Source: Chromobacterium haemolyticum
GTDB taxonomy: Bacteria; Pseudomonadota; Gammaproteobacteria; Burkholderiales; Chromobacteriaceae
Direction of reading: 5' to 3'
Assembly (NCBI RefSeq): GCF_002081825.1
Contig: NZ_MUKU01000043.1
Location: forward strand, 1-40,816
Length of the DNA stretch: 40,816 nucleotides
Shown here in pieces: positions 21,633 through 40,092 of the stretch; the stretch's first letter is position 1; each line of letters begins with the position of its first letter. The notes under the pieces were generated by a model. It was not told where the DNA came from. It did no database searches and saw only the letters and a list, made by a program, of their open reading frames with translations. A program made the translations under genes and the position numbers.

Positions 21633-21655
21633 GGCGCGCTGTCGCTCCTACCAAG

Positions 21656-21677: not shown

Positions 21678-23237
21678 TCAATATTTGAGTGGTTGACGCT
21701 TCACCGTCACCCGCTTGCTGAGGACTCGGTATCGGGTTCCATCCCAATCGTGGTCCACCGCATCCGAGTCCACGTCGTCCGGGTTGTCTTTGTCGCGCGG
21801 CAAGATCGGGATCCGACTGATCCAGCCGCGGCAATGATCGAACACGTAGAACGCAGGTTCTTCCGGCAACCCTGATTCCTTGTCGGCGGCATACAGCGCC
21901 GCTTCCAACATGTCGCAGAAAACGGCGGCGCCGTTGACTCTGGATCCTGGACGCTTGTCCGAGTCCGTCCAGCGCACGCCCTGCCTTGCCATCTTGTCGG
22001 CGATGCTCAGTTCGTGGTCGCCGCTGTTTTTGATCATGGAGTCCGCGGGCCCGGGGCGGACATTGGCACACAAGCCCGGCCGCACATTCAACTGCCCTTT
22101 TTGGAGGCTGGCAGGCCGTGCCGCCGCGCCGCCGGCAAGATGCTGGTCTATCCATTTCACGCCCTTGGCCACATCGGTGGAGCTCATGTTCAAACCGACA
22201 TTGAGCTGGTCCGGCTCGCAGCCATACCATTCGCCAATCAGGAACAAAGTGCCCTTCGGGAAACGTAATGATCGGTCGCCCAACTCAAATGCCTCGCCAT
22301 TCGACTCGGCCCACCACAGATTGGAGAATGGCTTGCTCTCGCCCCAGTCGTGGCTACGATCCACTTTCCAGCCGGGCGGTATCTTGAATGGCCGGACCAC
22401 ATGCACCGCCTCGCGCCACAGGTGATCGAAACGGCCGCCGCTGGTGACATCCCAGGAACCCTCCACCCAGGCTTTGCGCTTGTTCGGATCCTTGATGTTC
22501 ATCAGCGTGGCGATGTACACCGGATCCAGGTAGGGGTTCTCCTTGAAGCTGCCGTGAATGGCCACCCGCGTCAGCGTGATTTCCTCTTCCTTACGGGTCT
22601 GCGGGTTGTGCACGATCTGACTCGTGCGCAGCACCCGGCCGCGCGGCATCGGTTCGATGAAACGCCGCTTGACCCAGGCATGGCCTACGCCGAACGGATT
22701 GGTCGTGCTGATCGTTTCCAGGGGGATCGATGGCAACACAGCCCCATCCTCCAGCGGGTAGTTCTCCGGTTTGAAGGAGCTGCGCCGGCACGACATCATC
22801 GCGTCGTAGAAATCCATGCTTTTCTGCTTGGTCAGCTCGTTAAACCCGATGAAGGGCAGCTCCTGACCATGGAAGGCCCAGTAATCGTCCTCGTCGTCGC
22901 CGAAGCGGAACAGCAACTCCTCGCCAGTCGGCCAGACCCAGCGCAACTCGGAGGGCGAACGCAGAAAGCGGGCGCCATCGTTGAAAAGCTTGAACATCCG
23001 GTTCGACTGCGTGATGACGTCGGCCAGGTTCTTGTACTCGACATCAAAGATCACCCCTCGCCAGAAGCTGCCATAGCCCAAGCCCACCCGCTGGCGAAAC
23101 TTCATCAACTGCGCGGCCGTTTTGCCGGGGCCGCGCGTGCCTTCGAGCAAGATCTCATTGCACGGGCAGGACAATGCCAAGGACTGCGAGCCCGGCAAGG
23201 GCCGCCAAACCGCCCTGTATTCCGTGCGCGCCCTCAT
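21678..23237 (-). CDS. Terminase large subunit
   Basis: A 519-aa packaging motor. The N-terminal ATPase has Walker A E-G-T-R-G-P-G-K-T (about 32-40) and a Walker B-like L-P-F-I-G-F-N-E-L (about 128-136). The C-terminal RNase H-like nuclease has V-D-R-S-H-D-W-G-E and later acidic clusters (S-G-D-H-E-L-S-I-A-D; A-V-D-H-D-W). It acts with the small subunit to cut and translocate the concatemer. The start overlaps the small-subunit stop as ATGA, indicating translational coupling. Confidence 0.95.
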   Translation of the reverse strand: MRARTEYRAVWRPLPGSQSLALSCPCNEILLEGTRGPGKTAAQLMKFRQRVGLGYGSFWRGVIFDVEYKNLADVITQSNRMFKLFNDGARFLRSPSELRWVWPTGEELLFRFGDDEDDYWAFHGQELPFIGFNELTKQKSMDFYDAMMSCRRSSFKPENYPLEDGAVLPSIPLETISTTNPFGVGHAWVKRRFIEPMPRGRVLRTSQIVHNPQTRKEEEITLTRVAIHGSFKENPYLDPVYIATLMNIKDPNKRKAWVEGSWDVTSGGRFDHLWREAVHVVRPFKIPPGWKVDRSHDWGESKPFSNLWWAESNGEAFELGDRSLRFPKGTLFLIGEWYGCEPDQLNVGLNMSSTDVAKGVKWIDQHLAGGAAARPASLQKGQLNVRPGLCANVRPGPADSMIKNSGDHELSIADKMARQGVRWTDSDKRPGSRVNGAAVFCDMLEAALYAADKESGLPEEPAFYVFDHCRGWISRIPILPRDKDNPDDVDSDAVDHDWDGTRYRVLSKRVTVKRQPLKY

Positions 23238-23863
23238 GACTTACCTAAAATCTTGTTTTGATGTTGCTCGGCCACGGCCTCCCAGCCCTCGACGCTGTCC
23301 GCGGTCGGAACCGGCACAATATTGTGCGTCAGGTCGCCGCCCTGCTTTTCGTGCTCCTTGCGACGCCGGTCCAGATCAAGCCGCTTCAGTTCCAGTTCCA
23401 CCTCGCCCAACAGCAAGGATTGACGGCGCGACTCAAGGGACTCAATCCGCGCGGTGAGCCGGTCAATCAAGCCGGCGTAATCCTTGACGCGGTAGGTGTA
23501 CTCTTCAATCACCCCTTCTTCCTCGTCATCAGGTATGCCCCCGAACAGCACCGGCTTTACCGTCTTACTTTCCAGCTCCAGCGGTTCAGAATCCCGCTCC
23601 GCGGCAAGTGCCCGCATTAACCGGATTTTGGTGAGCCGTAGTTCCTCGTCCACCTGGCCCAGCTCTAAGCCAAGAGCAATCGCCTCCTCCTCCTCGGAAA
23701 GAAATTTGCTGTACAGGCTGCCTGGCCTGGCTGCATTGCGGTTGCCCCTGGAGTCTCTCGGGCCCGTGCTTTTGCCCCCGTGCAAGGCGCATCGATTCTT
23801 CCCCTTTAAGGGCCTGCGCTGACATGCCCCGCCTGTCCGGGTCTTTGCCCCACAAACAGTCAT
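23234..23863 (-). CDS. Terminase small subunit-like protein (HGGKSTGPR motif)
   Basis: A 209-aa protein directly upstream of terL. The N-terminus is a small Cys/His knuckle: C-G-A-K-T-R-T-G-G-A-C-Q-R-R ... C-A-L-H-G-G-K-S-T-G-P-R. Similar 'H-G-G-x-S-T-G-P-R-T' proteins often precede or form small terminase subunits. The rest is helical (coiled coil at about 130-170). DNA recognition at packaging sites is the likely role; the family link is from context. The start at 23863 has GAGGTG upstream. Confidence 0.75.
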   Translation of the reverse strand: MTVCGAKTRTGGACQRRPLKGKNRCALHGGKSTGPRDSRGNRNAARPGSLYSKFLSEEEEAIALGLELGQVDEELRLTKIRLMRALAAERDSEPLELESKTVKPVLFGGIPDDEEEGVIEEYTYRVKDYAGLIDRLTARIESLESRRQSLLLGEVELELKRLDLDRRRKEHEKQGGDLTHNIVPVPTADSVEGWEAVAEQHQNKILGKS

Positions 23864-23875
23864 GGACACCTCATG

Positions 23876-23902
23876 TGAAAAAAGGCCCGCCAAAGCGGGC
23901 CT
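23876..23902 (-). terminator. Terminator upstream of the terminase genes
   Basis: Perfect 8-bp stem AGGCCCGC / GCGGGCCT with loop CAAA. On the minus strand it is followed by seven T residues, 10-20 bp before the terS start. Confidence 0.8.
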
Positions 23903-24258: not shown

Positions 24259-24705
24259 TCAATCCTTCACAAACGACAGCCAGTCCTTGTCGATCTTGCC
24301 GGTTGACTGGAAAGGCACCTGCTCAGCCGGCAGATCAACCCCCATAAGCCTGGCGACCTCCTGGCCGTCTAAATATTTGTCGCCAAGCTCAATCCACTTC
24401 ATAGCCATCAGAAAGCGCTCTTTTTGCGCTCGGGACTGAAAGCACACGGCGAACCAGTATTCCGAATCCACAACCAGCTCAAACCGTTTGTCTTCGTTCT
24501 TCGCTCGCTCACGGAACCCTCTTTGCACAGCATCCAGATCAGCAAGGCTATCCGCTTCAATGTCTCCAGTGGGATCTGGCATTTGCACCAGCGCCGGCGC
24601 CTTGCGCGCCACCTTGGCCAACTCTGCGCTTTCACGAGCGCGCTTGGCCTTAGCCTTTGAGGCCTGGATGAGTTCCTGCTTTTTGGTAAGCTTTTCTTCA
24701 GCCAT
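24259..24705 (-). CDS. Phage protein coupled to the PAPS-reductase-like gene
   Basis: A 148-aa protein: a Lys/Ala-rich helical N-terminus (K-L-T-K-K-Q-E-L-I-Q-A-S-K-A-K-A-K-R), then a compact domain (F-E-L-V-V-D-S-E-Y-W-F-A-V-C-F-Q-S-R-A-Q-K-E-R-F-L-M-A-M) ending in D-K-Y-L-D-G-Q-E-V-A-R-L-M-G-V. I do not recognise a family with known function. ATG 24705 has GGGAGAAG upstream and lies inside the last codons of the PAPS-reductase-like gene, so the two are translationally coupled. Confidence 0.65.
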   Translation of the reverse strand: MAEEKLTKKQELIQASKAKAKRARESAELAKVARKAPALVQMPDPTGDIEADSLADLDAVQRGFRERAKNEDKRFELVVDSEYWFAVCFQSRAQKERFLMAMKWIELGDKYLDGQEVARLMGVDLPAEQVPFQSTGKIDKDWLSFVKD

Positions 24706-25396
24706 GCGTCTTCTCCCAGCGGAACACCTCAAGCTCGATCAAGGGAAACCATTCCAAAACCTTTTTGTAATCGCGTGGCAGGTGCTTTTTCATCGGCAAG
24801 ATAAAACGCAGGTCCAGGCCATCGAAAGATCGCCCCCAAATTTTGTAATCGACGGGCAGCCGAACATTTGCCTTCTTGAACGCGGTGATTAAATCAGCCT
24901 TCCTCCAATCCCAAACGGGATGAAAGCGGAGTTGTTTGTAGCTAACCGGCCCATGCGTCATGATGGCGATTCTGCGCATTGGACTGTCCGCCGCGCGAAC
25001 CCCATCTGCTACCAACATGTTTTGTGGCAAGCCCTCACTCTCCACGATCGCCCGTTGGATGTCGGTGTACTCAAAGTTAGGCAAGCCGGCCTGCTCGATT
25101 ACCCGGCATCGCTCCGGGGGCTGGAAAATGAAGCTGTTCAACCAGCGATGCAATGACGGGTGCGGCAAACGCTTGATCTGAACGCCAAAAAAGCGTTCAT
25201 AATAATCAATTGACTCCTCAACAAACTCCAAGCCAGGCACCAGATAAAGATAATAGGGATGCACCGCGTCAAAATGAGGCTGTATGGCCAACATTGCCGC
25301 GATAGCATCCTTCCCAGTCGAAAAAGCCAGTAGCGTTTCACTCTGCCTCTTCCTGACCGCCTTTATGGTTTCCTCGCCTGATAGTGGCTGAGTCAC
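24698..25396 (-). CDS. Phage PAPS-reductase-like (adenine nucleotide alpha hydrolase) protein
   Basis: A 232-aa PP-loop ATPase-fold protein. The nucleotide loop reads A-F-S-T-G-K-D-A-I-A (canonical S-G-G-K-D-S), followed by Y-Y-L-Y-L-V-P-G-L-E-F-V. Later come R-A-A-D-S-P-M-R-R and F-H-P-V-W-D-W-R-K-A-D-L, typical of phage PAPS-reductase/DndC-like relatives (cf. IbrA). Sulfate reduction is unlikely in a phage; nucleic-acid or regulatory roles have been proposed. The start is GTG 25396, preceded by GGGAGGG and overlapping the upstream TGA (GTGA). An ATG at 25411 is possible. Confidence 0.78.
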   Translation of the reverse strand: MTQPLSGEETIKAVRKRQSETLLAFSTGKDAIAAMLAIQPHFDAVHPYYLYLVPGLEFVEESIDYYERFFGVQIKRLPHPSLHRWLNSFIFQPPERCRVIEQAGLPNFEYTDIQRAIVESEGLPQNMLVADGVRAADSPMRRIAIMTHGPVSYKQLRFHPVWDWRKADLITAFKKANVRLPVDYKIWGRSFDGLDLRFILPMKKHLPRDYKKVLEWFPLIELEVFRWEKTHG

Positions 25397-25665
25397 GGCG
25401 TCCCTCCCCATATTCGACCAAAACCGGCCTTTTCTACTAAAATTGCCCAGCAAGCATAGGGAATGGGCTTATCGGGCTCTCCAATCCATCGTCGTACTGT
25501 TCGCGAAGTCACTCCGACTAATTCTCCGACATCACTACCCGTAAGGTTGCCTGCGCCTCTTAAAATCAATTTTATTTCTTCAGGCGTCGGCGGCATCCAA
25601 CCCTTGGCAAACGGCAAAAAACATTCGGGCCGAATCGTTCCGCCATACACTTGGATTTTTTCCAT
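25393..25665 (-). CDS. Small HTH DNA-binding protein
   Basis: A 90-aa protein with an XRE/YdaS-like helix-turn-helix: E-E-I-K-L-I-L-R, L-T-G-S-D-V-G-E-L-V-G-V-T-S-R-T-V-R-R-W-I, then P-I-P-Y-A-C-W-A-I-L-V-E-K-A-G. Probable regulator; a natural candidate to bind the palindromes around 26207 and 26298, though nothing proves this. The start at 25665 follows AAGGAAT. Stop and next start overlap (GTGA). A GC hairpin (25689-25705) separates it from radC. Confidence 0.75.
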   Translation of the reverse strand: MEKIQVYGGTIRPECFLPFAKGWMPPTPEEIKLILRGAGNLTGSDVGELVGVTSRTVRRWIGEPDKPIPYACWAILVEKAGFGRIWGGTP

Positions 25666-25688
25666 TGCTATTCCTTGCTTCGTTATTA

Positions 25689-25705
25689 GGCGGGCAATGC
25701 CCGCC
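25689..25705. terminator. GC hairpin between radC-like and HTH genes
   Basis: Perfect 7-bp stem GGCGGGC / GCCCGCC with loop AAT, 6 bp past the radC-like stop. No T run, so it may be an mRNA-stability or attenuation hairpin. Confidence 0.45.
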
Positions 25706-25710
25706 AAACG

Positions 25711-26157
25711 CTATAGCAAACCTTTATCAGCAAATGAGAATGTTGTATTGCCAGCCACAATAACATGATCCACCAATTGAACTTCAATCACTTTTAGACT
25801 GTCATTCAGGGACACTGTTAGGTTTTTATCAGCCGGTGACGGATAGGCCACTCCACCAGGATGGTTGTGACTAATAATGATAGCTGCCGCATTATGGTGA
25901 AGAACGGCTTTAATGATCTCGCGCGGATAGACGCGACATTCTGTCAAACTCCCAACGAACATGGGCTCATACGCAATAAGTCGCATATGAACATCTAAGA
26001 AGATTAAAGATAAAATCTCCTGTTCCTCAAGAGCCAATTGCAACACAAGATATTTTTTCACCAAATCCGGACTATTCAACAGAACTCCAGGGCGCTTTAA
26101 ATGGCTTTCAACTATATCTAGAGCCTTGTTGATAGCCTTGATCTCATTTGCATTCAT
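25711..26157 (-). CDS. RadC-like JAB/MPN domain protein
   Basis: A 148-aa RadC-type JAMM metalloprotease-fold protein lacking the N-terminal helix-hairpin-helix of chromosomal RadC, as is usual for phage and plasmid copies. The metal motif is complete: S-H-N-H-P-G-G (His97, His99) ... S-P-A-D (Asp110). It is often found with antirestriction and defence genes; the biochemical role is unsettled. The start at 26157 has CCGGAGC upstream. It diverges from the antirestriction gene across a 200-bp region with two related palindromes. Confidence 0.88.
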   Translation of the reverse strand: MNANEIKAINKALDIVESHLKRPGVLLNSPDLVKKYLVLQLALEEQEILSLIFLDVHMRLIAYEPMFVGSLTECRVYPREIIKAVLHHNAAAIIISHNHPGGVAYPSPADKNLTVSLNDSLKVIEVQLVDHVIVAGNTTFSFADKGLL

Positions 26158-26206
26158 CGGTTTGCTCCGGTTTTGACCTGCCAGAAGGCGGCCTTCACAA
26201 GCAATT

Positions 26207-26223
26207 TAGGACATTATGTCCTA
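26207..26223. promoter_or_regulatory. Palindromic operator TAGGACAT-T-ATGTCCTA
   Basis: Perfect 8+1+8 palindrome, 50 bp upstream of the radC-like start on the minus strand. A second, imperfect copy lies 91 bp away near the antirestriction gene. Likely a regulator-binding site for the divergent pair; the regulator is unknown. Confidence 0.6.
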
Positions 26224-26297
26224 ACGGTCAAGCCACAAAATCAATTTGTTGCATACATGCATCATTTTACACAAAGGAGCTATATACCCTTGATTGC

Positions 26298-26314
26298 TAG
26301 GACATTTTGACCTA
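26298..26314. promoter_or_regulatory. Second, degenerate copy of the TAGGACAT operator
   Basis: TAGGACAT-T-TTGACCTA matches the palindrome at 26207 in all but two positions. It lies 51 bp before the antirestriction ATG, where it could control that promoter. Confidence 0.5.
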
Positions 26315-26364
26315 ACTTCCCCACTGAAGGCCAGCTCATGCTAGGTCACAACCGGAGAAATCTG

Positions 26365-26793
26365 ATGACTACGACAAGAGACCATATCCAATCCGCTAAA
26401 GTCCCTACATGCTCGCGCAGCCAGTTCCTTCCTGACTTTTTTGGGCTCAGCCTGATGATTCAGGGCGAAAATTTGGTTTACTCTTGGATGGAGGCTCTAT
26501 CCACTGACTACAACGGTGGATCTTGGATATTCTATAAATTATCGAATAACGGGTATTTTATGGCTCCCGATGCAAGACAGAATTTCAAAATCTCATGCCC
26601 AGGCAATTATTTTGAAGGCGAAATGTCTGCACCGGCAGCCGGTATAGTTGCCACGCTTTTTGCAATTAACCAGTTGCTATTCAGCAAACTAAGCCCCCGC
26701 TCTACCGAGCATTTGACTCATTGCTATCACCGGTTGCTGGCGTTTGCAAAGCAGCATGAAGAAGCGAGTCAAATCCTCTCCGCAATAGACTAA
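26365..26793 (+). CDS. Antirestriction protein (ArdB/KlcA family)
   Basis: A 142-aa protein with the family blocks F-L-P-D-F-F-G, W-M-E-A-L-S-T-D-Y-N-G-G-S-W-I-F-Y, F-M-A-P and A-A-G-I-V-A-T-L-F-A-I-N. ArdB/KlcA proteins inhibit type I restriction without mimicking DNA, protecting incoming DNA. The start at ATG 26365 has CCGGAGA upstream; the frame opens at 26338. It is transcribed opposite to the surrounding phage genes and converges with the methyltransferase. Confidence 0.9.
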   Translation: MTTTRDHIQSAKVPTCSRSQFLPDFFGLSLMIQGENLVYSWMEALSTDYNGGSWIFYKLSNNGYFMAPDARQNFKISCPGNYFEGEMSAPAAGIVATLFAINQLLFSKLSPRSTEHLTHCYHRLLAFAKQHEEASQILSAID

Positions 26794-26809
26794 GTAGACG
26801 AACACTCCA

Positions 26810-27634
26810 TCACATAGCCCTGATCAAGTGCCCCGCGATCCACGCCGCGATTTGCGGGGCAACGGCGTTGCCGGCAGCATGAGCCTCTGTAAAGTTGGTC
26901 GCATCCAGTCCGAGGCAAAGCCCATGATCGTCAGACGCTCGGGCCCTGTCAGCCATCGCACGCCATCCGTTGGACTCAACGACGATGTTGGCGCCGCTAA
27001 GATCAACCTGGCTAGGCGATGATCCTGCAAGTAAGGTAGGAAAAGGTTTCTGCGATTGTCCCGTAATCTCCTGCCTTGGTAACACTCCCATTGGCGCGGC
27101 GTCAGCCAGCAACTCCACGGGGGGATGCTCGCGAAGACCTGCGACAATGAATACCCTTCGGCGGCTCGTGGGGATTCCGAAATATTGAGCATTAAGCACC
27201 CGCCAATATCCCACATACCCGCATTCGGCAAGCGTTGAAATGACTTCCTGGAAGTCTCGGCCATGTCCGCAAGAGAGCAGCCCCGTGACGTTTTCAAGGA
27301 CCAGCCAGCGAGGCTGAAGCTCGGTTGCAATGCGGCAGACTTCGTAGAACAGCCCTGAGCGTTCGCCCTCCAGCCCTCTTCGCTTGCCCATGGTTGAGAG
27401 GTCTTGGCATGGGAAACCTCCGACAATGACGTCAACCCGTTCAAGGCCGGCGCCGACTGCTCGGACGTCTTCATACTGCTTTGCATGGGGGAATCGGTCG
27501 GAGAGCACTGCTCTGCATATGGGGTTGATTTCGACTTGCCAGACCGTTCTGAATCCTGCGTTTTCAAACCCAATGTCAAATCCGCCGATCCCGGCGAACA
27601 AGCTTCCAACTGTTGGTTTTGCTGAGGCATCCAT
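26810..27634 (-). CDS. C5-cytosine DNA methyltransferase
   Basis: A 274-aa Dcm-type methyltransferase. Motif I is S-L-F-A-G-I-G-G-F-D (11-20), motif IV G-G-F-P-C-Q-D-L-S with catalytic Cys76, motif VI L-V-L-E-N-V, motif VIII near S-R-R-R-V-F-I-V, and motifs IX-X at the end (G-N-A-V-A-P-Q-I-A). It is shorter than typical M.HhaI-like enzymes because the target-recognition stretch is small; the sequence it methylates cannot be told. No restriction partner is adjacent, so self-protection of phage DNA is likely. ATG 27634 is preceded by AAGGTG. A Com-like gene lies 45 bp upstream. Confidence 0.93.
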   Translation of the reverse strand: MDASAKPTVGSLFAGIGGFDIGFENAGFRTVWQVEINPICRAVLSDRFPHAKQYEDVRAVGAGLERVDVIVGGFPCQDLSTMGKRRGLEGERSGLFYEVCRIATELQPRWLVLENVTGLLSCGHGRDFQEVISTLAECGYVGYWRVLNAQYFGIPTSRRRVFIVAGLREHPPVELLADAAPMGVLPRQEITGQSQKPFPTLLAGSSPSQVDLSGANIVVESNGWRAMADRARASDDHGLCLGLDATNFTEAHAAGNAVAPQIAAWIAGHLIRAM

Positions 27635-27679
27635 GAGCACCTTGATGGCTGGCGCTCATGGACGCTCTGGATAGGGGCT

Positions 27680-27793
27680 CTAGGCCCTCCAGGTATTGAT
27701 CATCTTGCACCGCGGACATTTAATCGACAAATACGAATAAATGCCCTCCGCAAGCTTTCGTGAACAGTGTTTGCAACGGACCTCAATTGCCAC
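27680..27793 (-). CDS. Com-family zinc finger regulator
   Basis: A 37-aa protein: start GTG 27793, I-E-V-R-C-K-H-C (Cys7, Cys10), A-E-G-I-Y-S-Y-L-S-I-K-C-P-R-C-K (Cys26, Cys29). This is the zinc-binding core of phage Mu Com, which binds the mom mRNA leader and exposes its ribosome-binding site. Here the next gene is a DNA methyltransferase, the same regulator-then-modification order as Mu com-mom. No long ORF marks it because of its size. Shine-Dalgarno is weak (AAGAAGAG, far from the start). Confidence 0.7.
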   Translation of the reverse strand: MAIEVRCKHCSRKLAEGIYSYLSIKCPRCKMINTWRA

Positions 27794-28026
27794 GAATTTA
27801 CCCGCTCTTCTTGTTTTTGATGTGTGGAACGCAACTTCGGCACCACGTCGTCAATATACTAAAGCCTTGTGTTTATTGATATATGACCTGCCCAATTTCA
27901 TATATGCCGAACTGCAACAATTTGAACAAGCTAGCCGGCTTTAGCGCCAAAGCGGATTCATGGCCTCTTCCCTTCAGCTGTCGCTGGGCCATCTGGCGTG
28001 AAGAAATATGACAAAAAAAACTAACC

Positions 28027-28061
28027 AGTATTGATAATCATTCCCGTTTGTGGTGTAAGAT
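28027..28061 (+). promoter_or_regulatory. Fur box and promoter of the NRPS gene
   Basis: 28027-28045 matches the 19-bp Fur consensus at 14 positions, including an unbroken GATAATCATT core. TTGATA (28031) could be a -35 and TAAGAT (28056) a -10, although their 19-bp spacing is long. Iron-loaded Fur would block this promoter. The rest of 27794-28128 holds no gene that I can support. Confidence 0.7.
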
Positions 28062-28128
28062 TGCGGCTCTCACTTGATCTGCCCACGCATCATCGCGCAG
28101 GCATGGAACCGCATCGGCACGCCTTCTT

Positions 28129-31100
28129 ATGACTTTGACCGCTTCTCGCCTCCCCGTCAGCGCCGCGCAGCACGGCATCTGGATGGGGCAGCAACTTTCC
28201 CCGGACAACCCGAGTTACCTCACCGCCGAAGCCACGGAGTTGCGCGGCGCGTTGAACCTGGATGCCTTGCGCGACAGTGCCGCGGAGGTGTTGGCTCACT
28301 GCGCGGCGCTGAACATGCGCTTCGAGTTTGACGGCAGCCAGCTGTGGCAGCAGCCGGTGGCCGCACAGGCGGAGATTGCCTGCCTGGACTTCAGCGCGGA
28401 AGCGGAACCGGAAGCGGCGGCGCGGGCCTGGGTGGCTCAGGCGCTGGCGCGGCCGTGCGATCCGGCGCGGGACGCGCTCTATTTGGGCGCGGTGTTGAAG
28501 CTGGGGCCGGAGCGGCACTGGTGGTATCTGCAGACCCACCATATCGCGCTGGACGGCTTCGCCTACGGCCTGCTGAGCCAGGCGCTGGCGGCGCGCTACA
28601 GCGCCCGCGTCAAGCAGCAGGCCCTGCCGCCGCTGGCGGATTGGTCGCTGGACAAGATCGTCGCCGCCGATCACGCCTACCAGGCCAGCGAGGCCTGCGC
28701 GCAGGACCGCGCCTTCTGGCTGCAGCGCCAGGGCCGGCAGCCGGCGGCCAGCACGCTGGCGCCCGCCGCCTTGCTGGCGGACGGGGTGAACAAGGCCGAG
28801 CAATGGCTGAGCCCGGCGCAGATCGCCGCCTGGCAGGCCTCCGCCAAACAGCACGGCGTGGACTGGGGCGCTTGGCTGCTGGCGGCGGTGGGGGCTTGGC
28901 TGGCCAAACACAGCGGCCGCCGCGCGCTGACCCTGGGCCTGCCGGTGATGAACCGCCTGGGCACGCCAGCGCTGGCGGTGCCGTGCATGGCGATGAATAT
29001 CGCGCCGCTGAGCCTGCGGCTGGACGAAGAGCTGGGCGCGGCGGAGCTGAGCCGCCAGCTGGCGGACAGCCTGCGCGCGATCCGGCCGCATCAGCGCTAT
29101 CGCTACGAGCAGCTGCGCGGCGATCTGGCGCGCGTCGGCGGCCAGCAGCGCTTGTTCGGCGCGGTGGTGAACCTGATGCCTTTCGACCGCCGCGCGCCAT
29201 TCGCCGGCCTGGACAGCCGGGTGCTGCCGCTGGGCTCCGGCCCGGTGGAGGACGTGTCGATCAATTTCAGTCTGTTGAACACCGAATGGCGGCTGTGCCT
29301 GGAAGCCAACCCCAACGCCTATCCGCAGACGGAACTGGACGGCCTGCGCGACGATTTGCTGGCCTGGCTGGACGCCTGGGCCGGCCGCGCGCCGGACGCC
29401 GCGCTGAGCGAGTTGCTGCCGGAGCTGCCGCCGCTGAGCGTGCTGGACGGCGCGGCGCTGGAGCGCGAACCGCGGGAGGTGCTGAGCCTGATCCGCGCCG
29501 CCGCCGCCGCGCGGCCGGACGCGACGGCGCTGGAACAGGATGGCGAGCGCCTGTCCTACCGCGAGCTGTTGCAGCGCGTGCTGCAACTGGCCGGCCGCTT
29601 GCAAGCCGCCGGCCTGCAGGCGGAGGAACGGGTGGCCATCGTGCTGCCGCGCAGCCCGGAAGCCATTGTCGCCATCCTGGCCACGCTGTGGGCCGGCGGC
29701 TGCTATGTGCCGCTGGACCCGCACGGCCCGCCGACGCGGCTGGCCATGGTGCTGGACGACGCGCAGCCGCGGCTGGCCGTTACCCTGAGCGCCTGGCGTC
29801 CGCTCTTGGGCGCCGTGCCGGCGCTGTGCCTGGACCTGCCGCCGCAACAGGACGCGCTAGCCGCCGCGGACCCGGCGCCGGCGGCTGAGCAAGCCGCTTA
29901 TCTGCTCTACACCTCCGGCTCCACCGGCAAGCCCAACGGCGTGCTGGTCAGCCACGGCGCGCTGGCCCAGTTCGTCAGCAGCGCCGGCCAGCTGTACCGC
30001 ATCGGCGCCGACGAACGCATTCTGCAATTCGCGCCGCTGCACTTTGACGCCAGCATCGAGGAAATCTTCCTGGCGCTGTGCCATGGCGGCACCCTGGTGC
30101 TGCGCACCGACGCGATGCTGGAATCCATGCCGGCCTTCGCCGCCGCGGTGGCGCGCCAGCGCATCAGCGTGCTGGACCTGCCCACCGCCTTCTGGCACGA
30201 ACTGGCCTTCGCCTTGCAGCCGGAACTGGCCGCGCAGCTGGCCAGCGTGCGGCTGACCATCATCGGCGGCGAAGCCGCGCTGCCGGAACGCGCCGGCCGC
30301 TGGCAGGCGCTGTTGCCCAGCAGCGTGCTGCTCAACAGCTATGGGCCCACCGAGGCCTCCATCATCGCCACCAGCGCCATCCTGTCCGGCCCCGGCGCGG
30401 TGTGGGACGGCGGAGACAGCGTGCCCATCGGCCTGCCGCGCCCCGGCGTGCGCGCCGTCATCGTCGACGAGCGCCTGCAGCCCGTGGCGCAGGGCGAGGA
30501 CGGCGAACTGTGCCTGCTGGGCGACGCACTGGCCATCGGCTACCTGGGCCGCGAAGAACTGACCGCGCGCCGCTTCGTCACCCTGGACGCCCTGCCCGGC
30601 GCGCCGCGCGCCTACCGCACCGGCGACCGCGCGCGTCTGAGCGACGGCCAGCTGCGCTTCCTGGGCCGGCTGGATCATGAAATGAAGATCAGCGGCCTGC
30701 GCATCGATCCGGCCGAAATCGAAAACGCGCTGCTGGCCTGCCCGGAGGTGCGCGAGGCCGCGGTGGTGGGCCTGCCGCTGGCCGGCGGCGGCTATACCCT
30801 GGCCGCCTTCCTCAGCGGCGGCGAGACCGAGCCGGCGACGATGCGCTCGCGCTTGGCCGAGGTGCTGCCGGCGGCGGCGATCCCGGATCATTGGCGCTGG
30901 CTGGACAGCCTGCCGCGCAACGTCAACGGCAAGATAGACCGCAAGCAGCTGGCCGCCGGCATGGAAGCGCAAGCGCCGGCCGCGGCGGAAGACGCCAGCC
31001 CGCTGGAACGTCAGGTGATGGAGGTGTGGCAGCAAGTGCTGGGCGTCACCCCGCCCAGCCGCCACGCCAATTTCTTCGAACTGGGCGGCAAATCGCTGCA

Positions 31101-32013
31101 AGCCATCCAGGTGGCCAACCGGCTGGCGCAGCGCCTGAACCGCGAAGTGGCGGTGTCCGCGCTGTTCAGCCACAGCACGGTGGCGGCGCTGGCGCAGGCG
31201 TTGAGCGCGCCCGCCGCGCACCGGCCGCCGTCCGCCAGCGAGGGCCAGGAGTTCGCGCCGCTGCTGACCATCCAGCCCGGCGCGCTGCCGGCGCTGTTCT
31301 GCCTGCACCCGGCGGAAGGCTTGTCCTGGTGCTATCTGGGCCTGGCCAAGCACCTGCCCGGCGTGGCCATCTACGGCCTGCAGGCCACCGGCATCACCGG
31401 CGACAAGCCGGCCAGCTTCGACGCGATGGTGGCGGACTACGTGGCCCGCGTGCGCGAAGTCCAGCCGCAAGGGCCGTACCGGCTGCTGGGCTGGTCGCTG
31501 GGCGGCGGACTGGCGCAGGCGATGGCTGCACAGCTACGCGCCGCCGGCGAAACCGTGGAACTGGCGGCGCTGATGGACAGCTATCCAACCGCCAGCTGGC
31601 AGGGCCGGCCGCAACCGACATTGCACGACGCGCTGGTGACGGTGCTCAGCGTCAACGGCGAAGTGGACGCCGACGAGAACGGCCAGCCGCTGGACAATGA
31701 GGCGATCTATCAACGCCTACTGCGCCCCGGCAGCCCGCTGGCGCCGCTGGGCCGCGCCGCGCTGGAGCGGCTGGGCGAGGCCTCGCTGCATGGCATGCAA
31801 TTGTTCCGCGACAGCGAAACCCCGCGTTACGACGGCGATGTGTTGCTGTTCCGCGCCGGCATCCACCCGGAAGACGCGCCCAAGCCGGAAGACTGGCGGC
31901 CCTTCCTCGGCGGCACGCTGGAGTGCGTGGAGCTGGACTGCGACCACTTCGGTATGAGTGATCCGGAGCCGATGAGAAGGATAGGCGAGGAATTGGCGCG
32001 GCGTTTGAGCTAA
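28129..32013 (+). CDS. Siderophore NRPS, EntF-type (C-A-T-TE)
   Basis: A 1294-aa single-module synthetase with the layout and length of EntF. Condensation domain (1-430): active site H-H-I-A-L-D-G at 137-143. Adenylation domain (about 450-950): T-S-G-S-T-G-K-P near 595, Y-R-T-G-D near 830, Lys935 in N-G-K-I-D-R-K. Carrier: L-G-G-K-S-L, phosphopantetheine Ser989. Thioesterase: G-W-S-L-G-G (Ser1123), Asp1150, His1273. All catalytic residues are intact. It should condense a DHB-charged carrier with its amino acid and cyclise or release the product. No DHB synthesis genes are in the window. It resembles the Chromobacterium CbaF/VbaF type (recall). GC is far above the flanking cargo, and it is antisense to phage genes on both sides. 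The start lacks a clear Shine-Dalgarno. Confidence 0.93.
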   Translation: MTLTASRLPVSAAQHGIWMGQQLSPDNPSYLTAEATELRGALNLDALRDSAAEVLAHCAALNMRFEFDGSQLWQQPVAAQAEIACLDFSAEAEPEAAARAWVAQALARPCDPARDALYLGAVLKLGPERHWWYLQTHHIALDGFAYGLLSQALAARYSARVKQQALPPLADWSLDKIVAADHAYQASEACAQDRAFWLQRQGRQPAASTLAPAALLADGVNKAEQWLSPAQIAAWQASAKQHGVDWGAWLLAAVGAWLAKHSGRRALTLGLPVMNRLGTPALAVPCMAMNIAPLSLRLDEELGAAELSRQLADSLRAIRPHQRYRYEQLRGDLARVGGQQRLFGAVVNLMPFDRRAPFAGLDSRVLPLGSGPVEDVSINFSLLNTEWRLCLEANPNAYPQTELDGLRDDLLAWLDAWAGRAPDAALSELLPELPPLSVLDGAALEREPREVLSLIRAAAAARPDATALEQDGERLSYRELLQRVLQLAGRLQAAGLQAEERVAIVLPRSPEAIVAILATLWAGGCYVPLDPHGPPTRLAMVLDDAQPRLAVTLSAWRPLLGAVPALCLDLPPQQDALAAADPAPAAEQAAYLLYTSGSTGKPNGVLVSHGALAQFVSSAGQLYRIGADERILQFAPLHFDASIEEIFLALCHGGTLVLRTDAMLESMPAFAAAVARQRISVLDLPTAFWHELAFALQPELAAQLASVRLTIIGGEAALPERAGRWQALLPSSVLLNSYGPTEASIIATSAILSGPGAVWDGGDSVPIGLPRPGVRAVIVDERLQPVAQGEDGELCLLGDALAIGYLGREELTARRFVTLDALPGAPRAYRTGDRARLSDGQLRFLGRLDHEMKISGLRIDPAEIENALLACPEVREAAVVGLPLAGGGYTLAAFLSGGETEPATMRSRLAEVLPAAAIPDHWRWLDSLPRNVNGKIDRKQLAAGMEAQAPAAAEDASPLERQVMEVWQQVLGVTPPSRHANFFELGGKSLQAIQVANRLAQRLNREVAVSALFSHSTVAALAQALSAPAAHRPPSASEGQEFAPLLTIQPGALPALFCLHPAEGLSWCYLGLAKHLPGVAIYGLQATGITGDKPASFDAMVADYVARVREVQPQGPYRLLGWSLGGGLAQAMAAQLRAAGETVELAALMDSYPTASWQGRPQPTLHDALVTVLSVNGEVDADENGQPLDNEAIYQRLLRPGSPLAPLGRAALERLGEASLHGMQLFRDSETPRYDGDVLLFRAGIHPEDAPKPEDWRPFLGGTLECVELDCDHFGMSDPEPMRRIGEELARRLS

Positions 32014-32024
32014 GCGCAGATAGC

Positions 32025-32187
32025 AAAAAGCCCCCTTTCCGGTAATGCTAGTCAGTTAAGAGAAAAACACCGTTCGCCAAGCATGGGGAACGGTGTTTTT
32101 TCTATGGTTTCAGCTACATTTGGCATCAAAAAAGTAGCTTCAAAATCCTTAACTGACTGGCATTACCCCTTTCCGGGGGCTTTTTTT
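32025..32187. terminator. NRPS terminator, split by a MITE
   Basis: Left arm AAAAAGCCCCC (32025-32035) and right arm GGGGGCTTTTTTT (32175-32187) would form an 11-bp terminator stem with a 5-nt loop if joined. The MITE at 32043-32165 plus its target duplication now separates them. The MITE's own hairpin probably replaces the function. Confidence 0.75.
32043..32165. mobile_element. 123-bp IS4-like MITE with 11-bp target duplication
   Basis: 18-bp terminal inverted repeats TAATGC(T/C)AGTCAGTTAAG differ at one position. Both flanks carry the direct repeat CCCCTTTCCGG (32032-32042 and 32166-32176). IS4 has ends beginning TAATGCCGATCAGTTAAG and makes 11-13-bp duplications, so an IS4-family transposase probably mobilises it. 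There is no coding capacity. Inside is a 15-bp hairpin (AGAAAAACACCGTTC / GAACGGTGTTTTTTCT, with a small bulge) with A and T runs, a bidirectional terminator. Confidence 0.85.
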
Positions 32188-32451: not shown

Positions 32452-33558
32452 ATGTATTTACGCATGTATTTTTTCTATATTTTTATGGAATGCACGGCTG
32501 CACAAACGATTAACATTCGTACAATTGCACTTCCTATAGATGAACCCGATAAAACCCACCAAGTAATTTATCAAGAAAATAATGATTTGATAAAATCAAG
32601 TAAAATTCAATATTTTGAAAAGCAAGTACAGTGGGTGGAACACCCCATAACCATTAATGATTTTCTACAACTGAATGGTCTAGCCACGGACTCACAAACT
32701 GCAAACTCATTTCTGACGTTAAACCCGCAGTTACATAAATTAAAAACCATTCCAACCGGAAGCAGGCTTTTTTACTTCACCCCAACAAAAAGTTCAAACT
32801 CTCCTTCACCTACAATAGGGGAATATACTTCAGTAAATATGGGCGACATCGCCAGGGCTAGTTTTGGACCACAAATCAACGCGGCCAAACAGACCCAGTT
32901 AAAAACACTGCAATTGCCAATATCGGTATACCGGCCGGACGTCAAGCCCAAAGAGTTCCAAGAGCTATCATTCACTTTTTATCAACATTCAATTGAACTC
33001 GCCAAACATGCACACCAGATGAGCAACACTGACTTAATACTAGCTCAATACTTACTAGCCCGCACACAAGCAAAATTTAGCAGCATTATTTCTGACGCAA
33101 AATATAAGTACATCAGCAAAGAATTTATAATGGAAATCAAATCATTCCTCGATAATGTCAATAATTTTATTGTATCAAAAAATAATGACAAACCTCCAAT
33201 TACCTATCACAAAGTCACAGTACATGTCACAACTAAATCAAGAAAACACAAGCCACCATCACTTAGAGTATACACACTACCCAGTGATGTTTTTGATCAC
33301 CCCTCAAATTACAATCAAGAATTAATTTTTGACATGCTCACGGCACTAACCTTTCAAGACTTAACTACGCCATCAACTTGGAATGTACCCCAATCGGAGA
33401 TGCGCCTTTGGATAGGTCCTGATTTTTTATACCAAGCAACAACTCAAAAAGTCATGAGCAATAAAGTTAAATACTACAAACCCATACACCCATCCACAAA
33501 CACACCCAACACAAAACCAATTACATTTCTCTACCCTGACAACGTGGAAATGCGATGA
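32452..33558 (+). CDS. AT-rich secreted protein with a LysM-like segment
   Basis: A 368-aa protein of unknown function. The N-terminus (M-Y-L-R-M-Y-F-F-Y-I-F-M-E-C-T-A-A-Q) looks like a short signal peptide. Residues about 66-110 (I-T-I-N-D-F-L-Q-L-N-G-L ... F-L-T-L-N-P-Q-L ... I-P-T-G-S-R-L-F) follow the LysM peptidoglycan-binding pattern as in FimV-like proteins. The rest is unrecognised, with a C-terminal domain rich in Thr/Pro/Lys. AGGAA precedes the ATG. Its stop overlaps the next start (ATGA). Very AT-rich compared with the NRPS next door, so independently acquired. Confidence 0.6.
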   Translation: MYLRMYFFYIFMECTAAQTINIRTIALPIDEPDKTHQVIYQENNDLIKSSKIQYFEKQVQWVEHPITINDFLQLNGLATDSQTANSFLTLNPQLHKLKTIPTGSRLFYFTPTKSSNSPSPTIGEYTSVNMGDIARASFGPQINAAKQTQLKTLQLPISVYRPDVKPKEFQELSFTFYQHSIELAKHAHQMSNTDLILAQYLLARTQAKFSSIISDAKYKYISKEFIMEIKSFLDNVNNFIVSKNNDKPPITYHKVTVHVTTKSRKHKPPSLRVYTLPSDVFDHPSNYNQELIFDMLTALTFQDLTTPSTWNVPQSEMRLWIGPDFLYQATTQKVMSNKVKYYKPIHPSTNTPNTKPITFLYPDNVEMR

Positions 33559-34169
33559 CATCCCCACTCAAAACCCAGTCAATAAATTCAACATCAAACA
33601 AGGTGGAATTACAAACCAAATTAACAATAGCCGCAGGCACATTATTTACAGCAATCTTGACGTTATTTGAAAATATCTTCAACACATTCATGAGTAATGA
33701 CCTTGCCCCCTCATTTGTAACCATTTCCGTTTTTTTTACAATTTCGATGCTAGCATGTCTAAAATTCAAAACACCCAGAATCAATTCATTCCTGCTTTGG
33801 ATTTCAACAACATCCTTCTTTATCTTGCTTTTTATTTCCACATTCATTAGCTTAATTGCACTAATACATAAATACACTTATCACTACCCGGAAGATTTTA
33901 CTCAGAGCTTAAAATACAATACCTACATTGGTGCCCCGTACCACAAAAATGGCGAGAAAATAGCTCAAGGCAGAGATTTATCTACCGTAGTTAGCGCGAA
34001 TGGCGGGCCCGCATTTGTTGAGCACTACTCAATTCTATGGTCAGCCAAAGAACGAACAAAAATCATTATATGTTTCAATGTATGTTTCTTTCTGTACTGT
34101 CTTTTTGCGACCTTTGCAATAATACTTCTTGCCCAACCTCCATTAAGCACCTCAAAAATTCCAAAATAA
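33555..34169 (+). CDS. Four-helix membrane protein partner
   Basis: A 204-aa integral membrane protein with about four transmembrane helices: about 23-45, 53-70, 78-102 and 170-192. A roughly 65-residue loop after the third helix carries H-K-Y-T-Y-H-Y-P-E-D-F-T-Q and N-G-G-P-A-F-V-E-H-Y. Translationally coupled to the LysM-like protein by ATGA, so they probably act together in the envelope; an effector/immunity or exclusion pair is possible but unproven. No family recognised. Confidence 0.6.
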   Translation: MTSPLKTQSINSTSNKVELQTKLTIAAGTLFTAILTLFENIFNTFMSNDLAPSFVTISVFFTISMLACLKFKTPRINSFLLWISTTSFFILLFISTFISLIALIHKYTYHYPEDFTQSLKYNTYIGAPYHKNGEKIAQGRDLSTVVSANGGPAFVEHYSILWSAKERTKIIICFNVCFFLYCLFATFAIILLAQPPLSTSKIPK

Positions 34170-34624: not shown

Positions 34625-35704
34625 CTATTGTCTATGCTCACCTGGAACTGGGATTGGCCCAGGGCCACCCGACGGTGCATTTGGCGCAACAGCCCCTGTA
34701 CGTCCCTGAATGCAGGCCATGGGGTTCGAATTGACACAAACCCTCCCTATAAATCGCCCATAACTTTCTGAAATCGAACACGCACCAAACTTATCCAACA
34801 AAATGTTCTTTGGCATACTTTTTAGAGGTCTCATGGCATCCTCGAGCATTATTTGTGCTTGTCCATAATTTTGGCGATCCATATTGCTCATGCCAGCCAA
34901 GACTTCCGCACACTTTGAATCTGAGCTTTCCCAACAGTTAACAACATCAAGAGGCACGGATTTCAACATTGAAAATACAGCTGATATTTTTGTCCGCAGA
35001 GTTTCGCATTCAGGCCCCTCCTCACCATCTGGCGTAATAGATGGAAGCCAAACAAAAAAGCATGAAAATGCCTTTTGACCTGACGTTGCATTGACAACAC
35101 CCTGTCCTTCTTTACGGATATCACCTGCAGATTTTTCCACTATAAATTCTGATATGCCATATGGTAGCTTTTCTCCTTCATTGAAAATGGCTTGATCATT
35201 GCGACCAACCAACTTCATGAGATAGGCTGTTGAACGTGTAACTGTAGCCTGGCCAGCATCTCTCCACACAACTCGTATACGAGCACTTGTAGATGAGCTT
35301 CCCATTTGCAACTCGCAAAATAACCCATCTATAGTTTCAGTTTTGCATTTTGACCAGGCCTGAACAAGTTCTGGCTTTATCGATCGCGAAGCATAACCAT
35401 AGAAACGGGCCATGTTCTCAGCTTGACTACTTGATTCACATTTTTCATTACTTTTTGTCTCCTTGTAATCAGCACTACCCAATATTTCACTACCGAACCC
35501 ACTCAAACCGCCCCCTTGCGTAGAAGAGCCTACTACACAGGCGGCAGAATTGAGTGCTAAATTTCTTGATTCCCAATTTATAATTTTAGTATTATCCTTT
35601 AAGTGGTCCTGCAAAGCCGCATCGCATCTATCCATAGCAACTGAGCAGGCAGGAACAAGTACAAATAGGATTGAACAAAATATCAATTTCTTACGATTCT
35701 GCAT
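34625..35704 (-). CDS. Secreted Cys-rich protein of unknown function
   Basis: A 359-aa protein. The signal sequence K-K-L-I-F-C-S-I-L-F-V-L-V-P-A-C-S-V-A ends either in a signal peptidase I site (S-V-A) or a lipobox-like V-P-A-C, so it could be a lipoprotein. The mature part has more than ten Cys (for example D-R-C-D-A-A, S-A-A-C-V-V, S-K-C-K-T, C-S-I-S-E-S-Y), suggesting disulfides, and ends in a Gly/Pro-rich tail. No family recognised. ATG 35704 has TTGGAG upstream. AT-rich, so part of the acquired block. Confidence 0.6.
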   Translation of the reverse strand: MQNRKKLIFCSILFVLVPACSVAMDRCDAALQDHLKDNTKIINWESRNLALNSAACVVGSSTQGGGLSGFGSEILGSADYKETKSNEKCESSSQAENMARFYGYASRSIKPELVQAWSKCKTETIDGLFCELQMGSSSTSARIRVVWRDAGQATVTRSTAYLMKLVGRNDQAIFNEGEKLPYGISEFIVEKSAGDIRKEGQGVVNATSGQKAFSCFFVWLPSITPDGEEGPECETLRTKISAVFSMLKSVPLDVVNCWESSDSKCAEVLAGMSNMDRQNYGQAQIMLEDAMRPLKSMPKNILLDKFGACSISESYGRFIGRVCVNSNPMACIQGRTGAVAPNAPSGGPGPIPVPGEHRQ

Positions 35705-35790
35705 GCAAACTCCAATCAACAAATAGCTAAATAGAAAAACATTTATAATACATACCCTTGCAATGCATTATAGTAGAAATCAAAAATACA

Positions 35791-36513: not shown

Positions 36514-36719
36514 CACCGCCCTTTCACATTCGCGTTGGCATGGTGCTGTTCGCACCGCGCCATGTGGTCCTGAGCCGGGCCAGCGCCGACGGACAACATG
36601 GCGCCCTCCGGCGTGAACGCCCGGTAGATCGCGCCAGCGCCGGTGCCATGGCCATACTTCACGACGCGGTAGCCGCGCCATTCCCTCGTGTTGTCGGCGG
36701 TTTTGGCCCATTCCGTCAC
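36513..36719 (-). CDS. Small early phage protein
   Basis: A 68-aa protein starting at GTG 36719, overlapping the P-like stop (GTGA). Contains W-R-G-Y-R-V-V-K-Y-G-H-G-T-G and I-Y-R-A-F-T-P-E-G-A-M-L, then a His/Cys-containing end (H-M-A-R-C-E-Q-H-H). Function unknown. Part of the coupled chain P-like, this gene, 28-residue peptide, Q-like. Confidence 0.6.
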   Translation of the reverse strand: MTEWAKTADNTREWRGYRVVKYGHGTGAGAIYRAFTPEGAMLSVGAGPAQDHMARCEQHHANANVKGR

Positions 36720-37546
36720 GCCGCATCCTCCATGGGCTTCGTTTTCGCCAGGAATGGCTGCAAGGACTCAGGCACGGCCTGATGCGACTGACGGATCGCC
36801 TCAGCGGCCAAGCGCTTGCCGCTCATTCCTCCGCGATAGACCCCGCGGGCGGTCTCGTCGGCGATCTTGAACGCCCACTCCAAACGCACCCTGTTGTCGC
36901 TGGGGAATTTCATGCGCTTGGCCGCACGCTGCACATCGGCAATACGGACTTGCACGTCCTGCTGGCTCAGCTCAGGTGCCGGCAACGCCTCCTCGTCGCT
37001 GACGTCGGGAATATCGCCAAGGTGGTGTCGGTTCGAATCCAGCGCCGCCATCCAGCGCCCGCGCATGCTGCGGTAATCGCTGTGCAGTAGGTCGTTGCCG
37101 AGGGATGCCGCTGCCCAGAACAGCATCGAGCTTGGCCAGTTCTGCGGCCGACGGGCGCGCCGTTTTGCCATTTCGGCCTGGGCCCGGTAGAACAGCGACT
37201 CTGGATCCAGGTCCGAGCCGCCAAGACAAGCGCGAATGAACGCGTCACAACTGGGTGGATACTGGTGGAGGGCAAGCAGGCCGCGCTTGATCTGGTCGGG
37301 GGAGATGCGAGCAAGGTCGAGTTCTTCGGCCCAAACTTTCTTTGCCTCTTCGATGCCGGCGTCTACGGCGTAGTCCATGCTGTCGCTCTGCTGCAGGAGC
37401 TTGCCGGTGCGCTGGTCGACGATGACTCCGCTACGGAATTTCTCCGTGAACTGGGCTCCGAATCGGCCGGAGAGCCGCCGGAAAATTTCATCCACCCAGC
37501 GCAAGGGGATGCTTCCGCTCGCATTCAGAATCAAATCATCCGTCAT
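36716..37546 (-). CDS. Replication protein P-like helicase loader
   Basis: A 276-aa protein with the lambda P-type N-terminus: V-D-E-I-F-R-R-L-S-G-R-F-G-A-Q-F, then V-W-A-E-E-L-D-L-A-R-I-S-P-D-Q-I-K-R-G-L and P-P-S-C-D-A-F-I-R-A-C. These proteins bring host DnaB to the phage origin. The gene directly follows the O-like initiator with an 11-base overlap, the canonical O-P order. ATG 37546 has GGGAGGTGA upstream inside the O-like gene. Confidence 0.82.
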   Translation of the reverse strand: MTDDLILNASGSIPLRWVDEIFRRLSGRFGAQFTEKFRSGVIVDQRTGKLLQQSDSMDYAVDAGIEEAKKVWAEELDLARISPDQIKRGLLALHQYPPSCDAFIRACLGGSDLDPESLFYRAQAEMAKRRARRPQNWPSSMLFWAAASLGNDLLHSDYRSMRGRWMAALDSNRHHLGDIPDVSDEEALPAPELSQQDVQVRIADVQRAAKRMKFPSDNRVRLEWAFKIADETARGVYRGGMSGKRLAAEAIRQSHQAVPESLQPFLAKTKPMEDAA

Positions 37547-38399
37547 CCGGGATCACCTCCCCATGAATCTCACGCTCGCCAGGCCGTAGGCCCCGCGGCG
37601 GAGGGTTAAGCACGGAGCCCAGGGCGGCCTGCTTAGCGCTGGAGCTGGTGGTGGAGTGCTGGGCAGCTTGCAACCTGGCATCGGTCACTCGCTGTCGGTC
37701 GGCGTTGAACTGGTGCTGGTCCAGCAGCCACTTGCGGAATTGAGCCTCCCAGGCTTGCAGATCAGCGCGGGTCTCACGTCTCGCCTGGTAGTGAGCAACA
37801 AAGCGGGCGATCTCGGTCGGCAGGTCCAAACCTAGCGACTGCGCTTTCGCCACATCTACCCGCGCCGCTTGAAAGTCGTCAGGGACGGCGAACCCGTCGC
37901 AGCTGTCACGCGCGCGTTCACCCACCGAACGTAGTGAGGTGGGTTTATCTTTATCTTTATCTAGCGGGACATTGCGTGACGCGTCGTGACAATGCCGTGA
38001 CTCTGCTTGTGACTCTGAGCACTCTTTGGCTTCCTTCTCTCGTTGCCGTTGCTCCCTCTTCCGCTCTGCTGCTGACTTTGCGCCGGTTTTCTCATTGCCC
38101 GAGTCCTCGCGCTTTGGCTGACGTCCCTCCCATCCGGACAGCTTATTGCCGTCCAATACGCGGCCCTGCATGGCTTCTTGGATGGCCAGAATTTCTCCCT
38201 CTGTCACGTCGAGGGCGCTGGATAAATCTTCTGGCGTGACAGTCACGTGACCTCGCGTGACATTGCGTGACGCATCAACCAGCAGATGCAAAAACACGGC
38301 TTGTACCAAGGCAATGGGCTGCCCCGACAGGCGGCTAATCGTGCGCCACTTAGGGTCGTTCGGCATGTCATGCCAGAGTCTCAGCCATTGGTTGCTCAT
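37536..38399 (-). CDS. O-like replication initiator with a DnaT-type C-terminus
   Basis: A 287-aa protein. N-terminal winged-helix-like domain (1-95): W-L-R-L-W-H-D-M-P-N-D-P-K-W-R-T-I, L-V-D-A-S-R-N-V, L-S-S-A-L-D-V-T-E-G. A Lys/Arg/Glu-rich linker follows (100-160). The C-terminal W-E-A-Q-F-R-K-W-L-L-D-Q resembles the DnaT domain. It probably binds the origin located within its own gene (GTGAC clusters at 37976-38013 and 38236-38271) and recruits the P-like loader. The start overlaps the previous stop (ATGA). The peptide D-A-S-R-N-V occurs twice because both iteron clusters encode it. Confidence 0.8.
   Translation of the reverse strand: MSNQWLRLWHDMPNDPKWRTISRLSGQPIALVQAVFLHLLVDASRNVTRGHVTVTPEDLSSALDVTEGEILAIQEAMQGRVLDGNKLSGWEGRQPKREDSGNEKTGAKSAAERKREQRQREKEAKECSESQAESRHCHDASRNVPLDKDKDKPTSLRSVGERARDSCDGFAVPDDFQAARVDVAKAQSLGLDLPTEIARFVAHYQARRETRADLQAWEAQFRKWLLDQHQFNADRQRVTDARLQAAQHSTTSSSAKQAALGSVLNPPPRGLRPGEREIHGEVIPDDG
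37944..38013. repeat. Candidate origin: TTTATC repeats plus GTGAC iteron cluster A
   Basis: Four GTGAC copies start at 37976, 37986, 37997 and 38009 (spacing 10, 11, 12 bp). They lie beside three tandem TTTATC hexamers (about 37946-37963), an AT-rich stretch that could unwind. In lambda the origin also lies in the O gene, with iterons beside an AT-rich region. Confidence 0.6.
38236..38271. repeat. GTGAC iteron cluster B
   Basis: Four GTGAC copies start at 38236, 38247, 38257 and 38267 (spacing 11, 10, 10 bp), all in the same orientation as cluster A. The two clusters share GACATTGCGTGACGC. Confidence 0.6.
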
Positions 38400-39815: not shown

Positions 39816-39817
39816 AG

Positions 39818-40081: not shown

Positions 40082-40092
40082 ACACCGATACT

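Follow-up and report, generated by a model that had tools for sequence, protein, structure and literature searches.

A lysine-type siderophore synthetase gene between the early and late halves of a probable lambdoid prophage in Chromobacterium haemolyticum

We analyzed a 40,816-base stretch of DNA from Chromobacterium haemolyticum (the window), which is the entire contig C38 of the draft genome G000 (5.29 Mb, 88 contigs) and is also present in IMG/VR as UViG_2848510198. The window contains a gene for a nonribosomal peptide synthetase (NRPS; 28129..32013, plus strand) between the two halves of a lambdoid prophage. The late half to its left, on the minus strand, carries the terminase, portal, head, connector, major tail, tape measure, and J genes, whereas the early half to its right holds homologues of P, O, cII, cro, and the cI repressor. 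No prophage module is duplicated between the halves, which share the same orientation and follow a collinear lambdoid order. The initial annotation had placed an intact, EntF-type synthetase of 1294 residues inside one phage genome, antisense to late transcription, as a complete siderophore gene that would confer iron acquisition on the lysogen. Profile scans of the window proteins with Pfam, PHROGs, and NCBIfam agreed with the complementary halves, and the NRPS gene is indeed antisense to the late genes. The immunity, replication, terminase, head, and tail genes listed as its neighbors were also recovered; no window protein scored above the PHROGs threshold as a Q antiterminator, and Com could be recognized only by eye.

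The NRPS open reading frame starts with ATG, and its translation of 1294 residues has the order condensation, adenylation, thiolation, and thioesterase (C-A-T-TE), the single-module layout expected of an NRPS for a lysine bis-catecholate. The Condensation, AMP-binding, AMP-binding_C, PP-binding, and Thioesterase domains all exceed their own Pfam cut-offs, the last spanning residues 1055–1276, and the motifs HHIALDG, YTSGSTGKPNG, YGPTE, NGKID, GGKSL, and GWSLG are all intact. The dN/dS ratio of 0.05–0.10 against four orthologues indicates that the NRPS evolved as a working gene, in line with the intact enzyme claimed at first. The kilobases of the gene have a GC content of 68–74%, and the two adjoining kilobases 54% and 40%. 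The ten specificity residues of the adenylation domain, assigned by motif with the position numbering that we presume to be the usual one, are DAEDIGSIIK, a code which we take to mean lysine. We aligned 16 loci, chosen from 72, and the pattern DAEDIG(S/T)(I/V)(I/V)K recurs in 15/16 other aligned sequences, including those of Azotobacter vinelandii, Burkholderia, and myxobacteria, with C. piscinae as the sole exception (DGEDMGFISK). Four Azotobacter, Burkholderia, and Methylobacillus loci (L035, L021, L026, and L016) share this lysine-type code in the form DAEDIG(S/T)(I/V)IK; those from Azotobacter and Burkholderia presumably encode azotochelin and cepaciachelin synthetases.

Two other synthetase models did not fit. 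The enzyme cannot be called EntF-type in the enterobactin sense, because the EntF model NF007605 scores 541.5 bits against a cut-off of 2400 and the code differs from DVWHFSLVDK, which we take to be the serine code of EntF. The best NCBIfam model by score is that of the myxochelin synthetase MxcG (NF038078), and the same code class occurs in myxobacterial loci, but the score of 1089 bits stays below the cut-off of 2300. MxcG has a terminal reductase, whereas the NRPS in the window ends in a thioesterase. In C. violaceum, PMC11019928 names CbaF as the chromobactin NRPS, and PMC13251462 identifies the chromobactin of this species with cepaciachelin and its cluster as homologous to the Methylophilus cluster. 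The lysine-type code, the C-A-T-TE architecture, and this literature make a CbaF-like enzyme, predicted to couple two 2,3-dihydroxybenzoate (2,3-DHB) units to lysine, the best reading of the gene. CbaF, a candidate orthologue, and the Burkholderia, Methylophilus, and Azotobacter NRPSs have the same domain order. Unlike in the known cepaciachelin and azotochelin clusters, the gene stands alone in the prophage, with the DHB and transporter genes on other contigs.

The region upstream of the gene (28026..28128, plus strand) aligns with the native chromosomal copies of close relatives and is taken as their common promoter region. It contains the Fur-box-like core TTGATAATCATT (28031–28042, plus strand), found with the 12-nt core of what we presume to be the Fur consensus; with up to one mismatch allowed, a match also turned up in 16 of 100 shuffles, and the 19-nt consensus was not found in the promoter search with up to three mismatches. 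Among the matches above 60 nt listed for 25 chosen loci of 81, nucleotide homology with four close chromosomal copies is limited to 28023–32007 at most, beginning just upstream of the Fur-box-like core and stopping six bases short of the gene's 3′ end. Downstream of the gene, a terminator-like hairpin encloses an element resembling a miniature inverted-repeat transposable element (32041..32167, delimited partly by eye), with 20-nt inverted repeats, between 11-nt direct repeats. The end of this element resembles the tail repeat of contig C67 of the same genome, and 15 diverged matches (73–75%) to it occur in genome G003.

The distance from the end of the helicase loader gene to the first recognized terminase gene is 12.8 kb in C38, as compared with 3.4 kb in a prophage on C4 of the same genome and 2.0, 1.65, and 2.45 kb in the related viral contigs L217, L216, and L218, which indicates that the NRPS gene is part of an insert. 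The extra length comprises antirestriction, RadC, and methyltransferase genes and an 8-kb block with the NRPS gene and three orphan genes. Two of these orphans are AT-rich (368 and 204 residues, 32452..34169, plus strand) and have no assigned family; the third encodes a 365-residue protein whose N-terminus, judged by eye, resembles a signal peptide (34625..35722, minus strand). The three genes, at 32.2–35.8 kb, had no match in Pfam, PHROGs, or, for the two of them tested, NCBIfam, and an IMG/VR scan, which detects close relatives only, gave no relative of the 368- or 365-residue protein besides the window.

Each end of C38 consists of 127–129 bases common to 11 other contig ends. Both end sequences begin with inverted repeats that resemble each other, and each is present 12 times; we take them as the opposite ends of one insertion sequence (IS). 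The right end (40690..40816) is flanked by AATT, the same four bases as the IS flank of contig C47; for the left end (1..127), flanked by GAGA, no matching flank was found. The comparison of 12 ends with 12 ends yielded four pairs with matching 4-base flanks (C51–C55, C29–C37, C7–C50, and C38–C47), against 0.56 expected by chance at uniform base composition. C47 carries the arm expected beyond cI, with an AAA ATPase, RecT, a PD-(D/E)XK nuclease, and a Phage_integrase protein adjoining tRNA-Thr(TGT), so that the integrase and the attL of a lambdoid prophage are found on this contig; none of the 40 window proteins scanned is an integrase. Comparison of the DNA next to 22 IS ends, 8 kb per end (18 kb for C53 and 4.5 kb for C65), with the related viral contigs gave two matches, a strong one for C47 (75% over 272 residues) and one of only 37 residues for C50. 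Apart from the window itself, a scan with the helicase loader detected the viral contigs L216, L217, and L218. The first two hold both C38-type and C47-type genes, at 59% and 67% identity for the loader and 76.4% and 74.5% for the nuclease. From the shared AATT flank, the gene content, and these two viral contigs, we infer that C47 and C38 would belong to one tyrosine-integrase lambdoid prophage at tRNA-Thr(TGT). A circular phage-plasmid was rejected: the orientation of the IS ends would fit one IS in a circle, but the flanks GAGA and AATT differ, unlike after one simple insertion. The segment 14000–28020 gave no plasmid match in near mode.

The prophage as assembled is probably defective, because J is cut by the IS at 127, attR was not found, an IS lies between cI and the left arm, and the scan of 40 window proteins recognized no lysis gene, although the cassette may lie beyond the left IS. 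The NRPS gene is thus probably trapped in a damaged prophage.

For the native context of the gene, we used its first 1472 nt to search 19 Chromobacterium genomes, each from a different species and G000 among them. This query matched at 70–97% identity over most of its length in 12/18 other genomes, the remaining six giving short matches or none; the nearest named relatives by the gene are Chromobacterium aquaticum, C. alkanivorans, and C. haemolyticum. A conserved chromosomal home, which the initial annotation had suggested looking for, does exist: close relatives hold the gene (95–97% identity) at a siderophore/type I-F CRISPR locus. In the single-contig genome G012, the type I-F system has its cas1 part on one side of the gene and its csy part on the other; siderophore ABC genes follow on the outer side of cas1, a TonB receptor gene on that of csy, and the entire set is contiguous. 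The gene names at this locus come from Pfam on the C. alkanivorans copy, the order from an alignment, and cas3 from position only. CRISPR-like arrays with a 60-nt period flank the native NRPS gene. Among the closest relatives (L017 and L015; L381/L382 of G012; partly L014, at contig ends), the NRPS gene sits inside a split type I-F CRISPR-Cas system, with csy and an array on one side and an array and cas1 on the other. The gene lies at 4.22 Mb in G012 and tRNA-Thr at 2.52 Mb, 1.7 Mb apart.

This locus is broken in G000, where its outer parts lie on C67 and C56. C67 (L112) stops inside cas1 and continues into a 315-nt tail found at 98% elsewhere in the genome; C56 (L113) stops inside the TonB receptor gene, and its tail resembles, at 83% over 93 nt, a sequence from the end of C6. 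Both contigs thus end in repeat-like DNA. The stretch between the two parts, 14.5 kb in G012, was not found in G000 except for the NRPS gene, and csy1-4 were not found by nucleotide search (best 40 of 921 candidates). One full copy of the NRPS gene was detected in G000, in the prophage (nucleotide search, best 40 of 703 candidates).

The broken locus, together with the IS copies that bound C38, would also suit an arrangement in which two defective prophages flank the native chromosomal NRPS gene, which then never entered a phage genome. Both pieces would then have to break off at one and the same functional boundary, point the same way, and contain no duplicated module and no integrase among the 40 proteins scanned. 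Moreover, the csy and repeat-array DNA next to the native gene is seen at neither junction of the NRPS gene here, and the C47 left arm and the C38 early genes match the same two viral contigs. A pair of att sites on each side of the gene was not seen between the IS copies at the contig ends, the DNA beyond the left IS not being covered. We therefore consider two prophages quite improbable and retain the single prophage claimed initially, on the strength of the complementary halves, the single integrase and att end on C47, and the short early/late junctions in relatives. A wrong join of phage and NRPS sequences in the assembly is less credible still. The genome is a draft of 88 contigs with 127-base end overlaps, but the gene and its flanks gave no second long near-identical match in the genome and hence show no repeat at the junctions that could have misled the assembly.

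The copy in the prophage is 96.6% identical to those of G012 and C. aquaticum. Four long host blocks compared with G012 gave 92.6, 96.8, 97.3, and 97.6%, a 530-nt block 84%, and the host side of C47 83–88%. Because 96.6% lies within the range of the four long blocks and dN/dS is low, we read the NRPS as the lineage's own, maintained gene; a foreign origin was rejected on this divergence. Iron acquisition newly brought by the phage, as first proposed, is not supported, since the gene occupies a chromosomal locus in close relatives and is missing from the remains of that locus here. A variant of the single-prophage explanation would keep lysogenic conversion, in that the phage gained the gene in another close Chromobacterium and brought it by lysogeny, replacing a lost native copy. 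The position within the phage with its own promoter region, the identity of 96.6% to G012 and C. aquaticum, and the broken native locus are all compatible with this variant. Since the divergence gives no foreign signal and an IMG/VR scan with the NRPS, limited to close relatives, returned only this contig, we regard it as unlikely.

A complete siderophore system was not supported. The 2,3-DHB supply genes lie side by side on C6, encoding a chorismate-binding protein, an AMP-ligase, an isochorismatase-carrier protein, and a short-chain dehydrogenase above the TIGR04316 cut-off. With this operon on C6 and the transporter genes on other contigs, the prophage carries one enzyme and not a pathway. 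The siderophore ABC genes remain in G000, and uptake by the original receptor is doubtful because its gene is cut.

Taken together, one lambdoid prophage at tRNA-Thr(TGT) quite probably holds the cepaciachelin/azotochelin-type NRPS gene of its host lineage, with a Fur-box-like promoter, at its early/late junction. Illegitimate recombination, to which the phage RecT and exonuclease perhaps contributed, would have placed the gene there, either in this lineage or in a very close relative from which the phage then brought it. Transcription of this moron-like unit, antisense to the phage operons, may start from an iron-regulated promoter of its own. The encoded enzyme could then act with the chromosomal DHB operon, EntE/EntB-like proteins loading 2,3-DHB, the C domain acylating both lysine amines, and the TE domain releasing the bis-catecholate. 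A stronger version, in which a temperate phage captured an entire Fur-controlled synthetase unit at this junction, carried it between Chromobacterium lineages, and made host iron acquisition prophage-dependent, appears to us a minor possibility.

Several observations weigh against the single-prophage explanation. The join of C38 to C47 spans an IS of about 12 copies and was inferred rather than read through. The probability that AATT agrees by chance with one of 11 other ends is about 4%, and if the flanks are read as 3 bp, C38 pairs with C53 and C47 with C35. L218 has only C38-type genes and no C47-type gene. No attR was found, so that the integrase and tRNA-Thr end on C47 account for one of the two prophage ends sought; the 15-nt end of tRNA-Thr occurs once in G000, and a shorter core would escape such a search. 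The left partner of C38 was not identified either, and strictly speaking C38 might sit in the interval that separates C67 from C56. PHROGs matched four of the ten proteins next to the eight IS ends left without a partner (a transposase close to the C6 end and families of unknown function on C36, C65, and C41), none of them a recognized structural or lysis gene. The native copies also diverge from one another near the boundary at 28026, the single full copy and the missing csy genes depend on the best 40 candidates of each search, and no related phage was found that has these late genes and lacks the NRPS gene.

NRPS genes are large and usually lie in chromosomal or plasmid clusters. An integrated, probably crippled virus genome is a very unusual place for such a gene. 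None of 50,697 phage records has a place covering 80% of the NRPS protein, and the segment 16000–40816 has no near match among phages. Partial matches occur in 51 phage records. The two that we opened (H1 and H4 of 20 listed, from the same assembly) show them amid lasI, bolA, greB, and tRNA genes and are probably mislabelled bacterial contigs, as judged from their gene content. These records, CAKLQH020000009.1 and CAKLQH020000021.1, are filed as Acinetobacter phage MD-2021a; in the stretches inspected, both hold NRPS genes as well as ordinary bacterial ones. For plasmids, at least 2593 records match, at least 29 of them with a single place that spans 80% or more of the protein (products unchecked); the siderophore-type NRPSs on plasmids differ in their carrier and are all below 60% identical to the NRPS here. 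In the literature searched, we found no siderophore NRPS described from a prophage. Biosynthetic gene clusters in phages are not new as such, because a 2025 review (PMC12360287) reports a metagenomic study that found them on phage genomes. Like phage morons and other lysogenic conversion cargo, the gene has its own promoter region, opposite strand, position at a module junction, and different GC content; unlike them, it is a biosynthetic gene of the host, with a broken native locus, in a defective-looking prophage. If the proposed explanation is correct, a host biosynthetic gene can enter phage DNA together with its promoter region, which would tie the iron supply of the host to keeping the prophage and offer a possible route to mobility for such genes.

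The other genes of the window are described here from right to left. At the right end, the immunity region (39249..40574) comprises cII-like and cro-like genes on the minus strand and a repressor-like gene on the plus strand, next to a gene for a phage DNA-binding protein (phrog_1305; 38460..39230, plus strand). Further left on the minus strand are the genes for the O-like replication initiator and the P-like helicase loader (36716..38399) and three small early genes with same-order homologues in the sister prophage on C4 (35791..36726). Left of the NRPS gene, the start of the late region (24259..27848) contains PAPS-reductase-like, RadC, antirestriction (plus strand), methyltransferase, and Com-like genes, the last encoding a CxxC peptide upstream of the methyltransferase that was noticed by eye and matched no NCBIfam model. 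The minus-strand block at 14541..23893 encodes the small and large terminase subunits, portal, head morphogenesis, scaffold, major head, connector, tail terminator, and major tail proteins, followed at 91..9025 (minus strand; PHROGs) by the tape measure, minor tail, and J proteins, J running into the IS that ends at 127. Two genes on the opposite strand lie within the tail region and encode a mobilome CxxCx(11)CxxC protein (11886–12503) and a repressor-like protein (13359–13649). On C47, the left arm of the phage contains a gene (28088–28843) for a LuxR-type autoinducer-binding regulator, diverged homologues of which (29–31%) lie near related early genes on C4 and C2.

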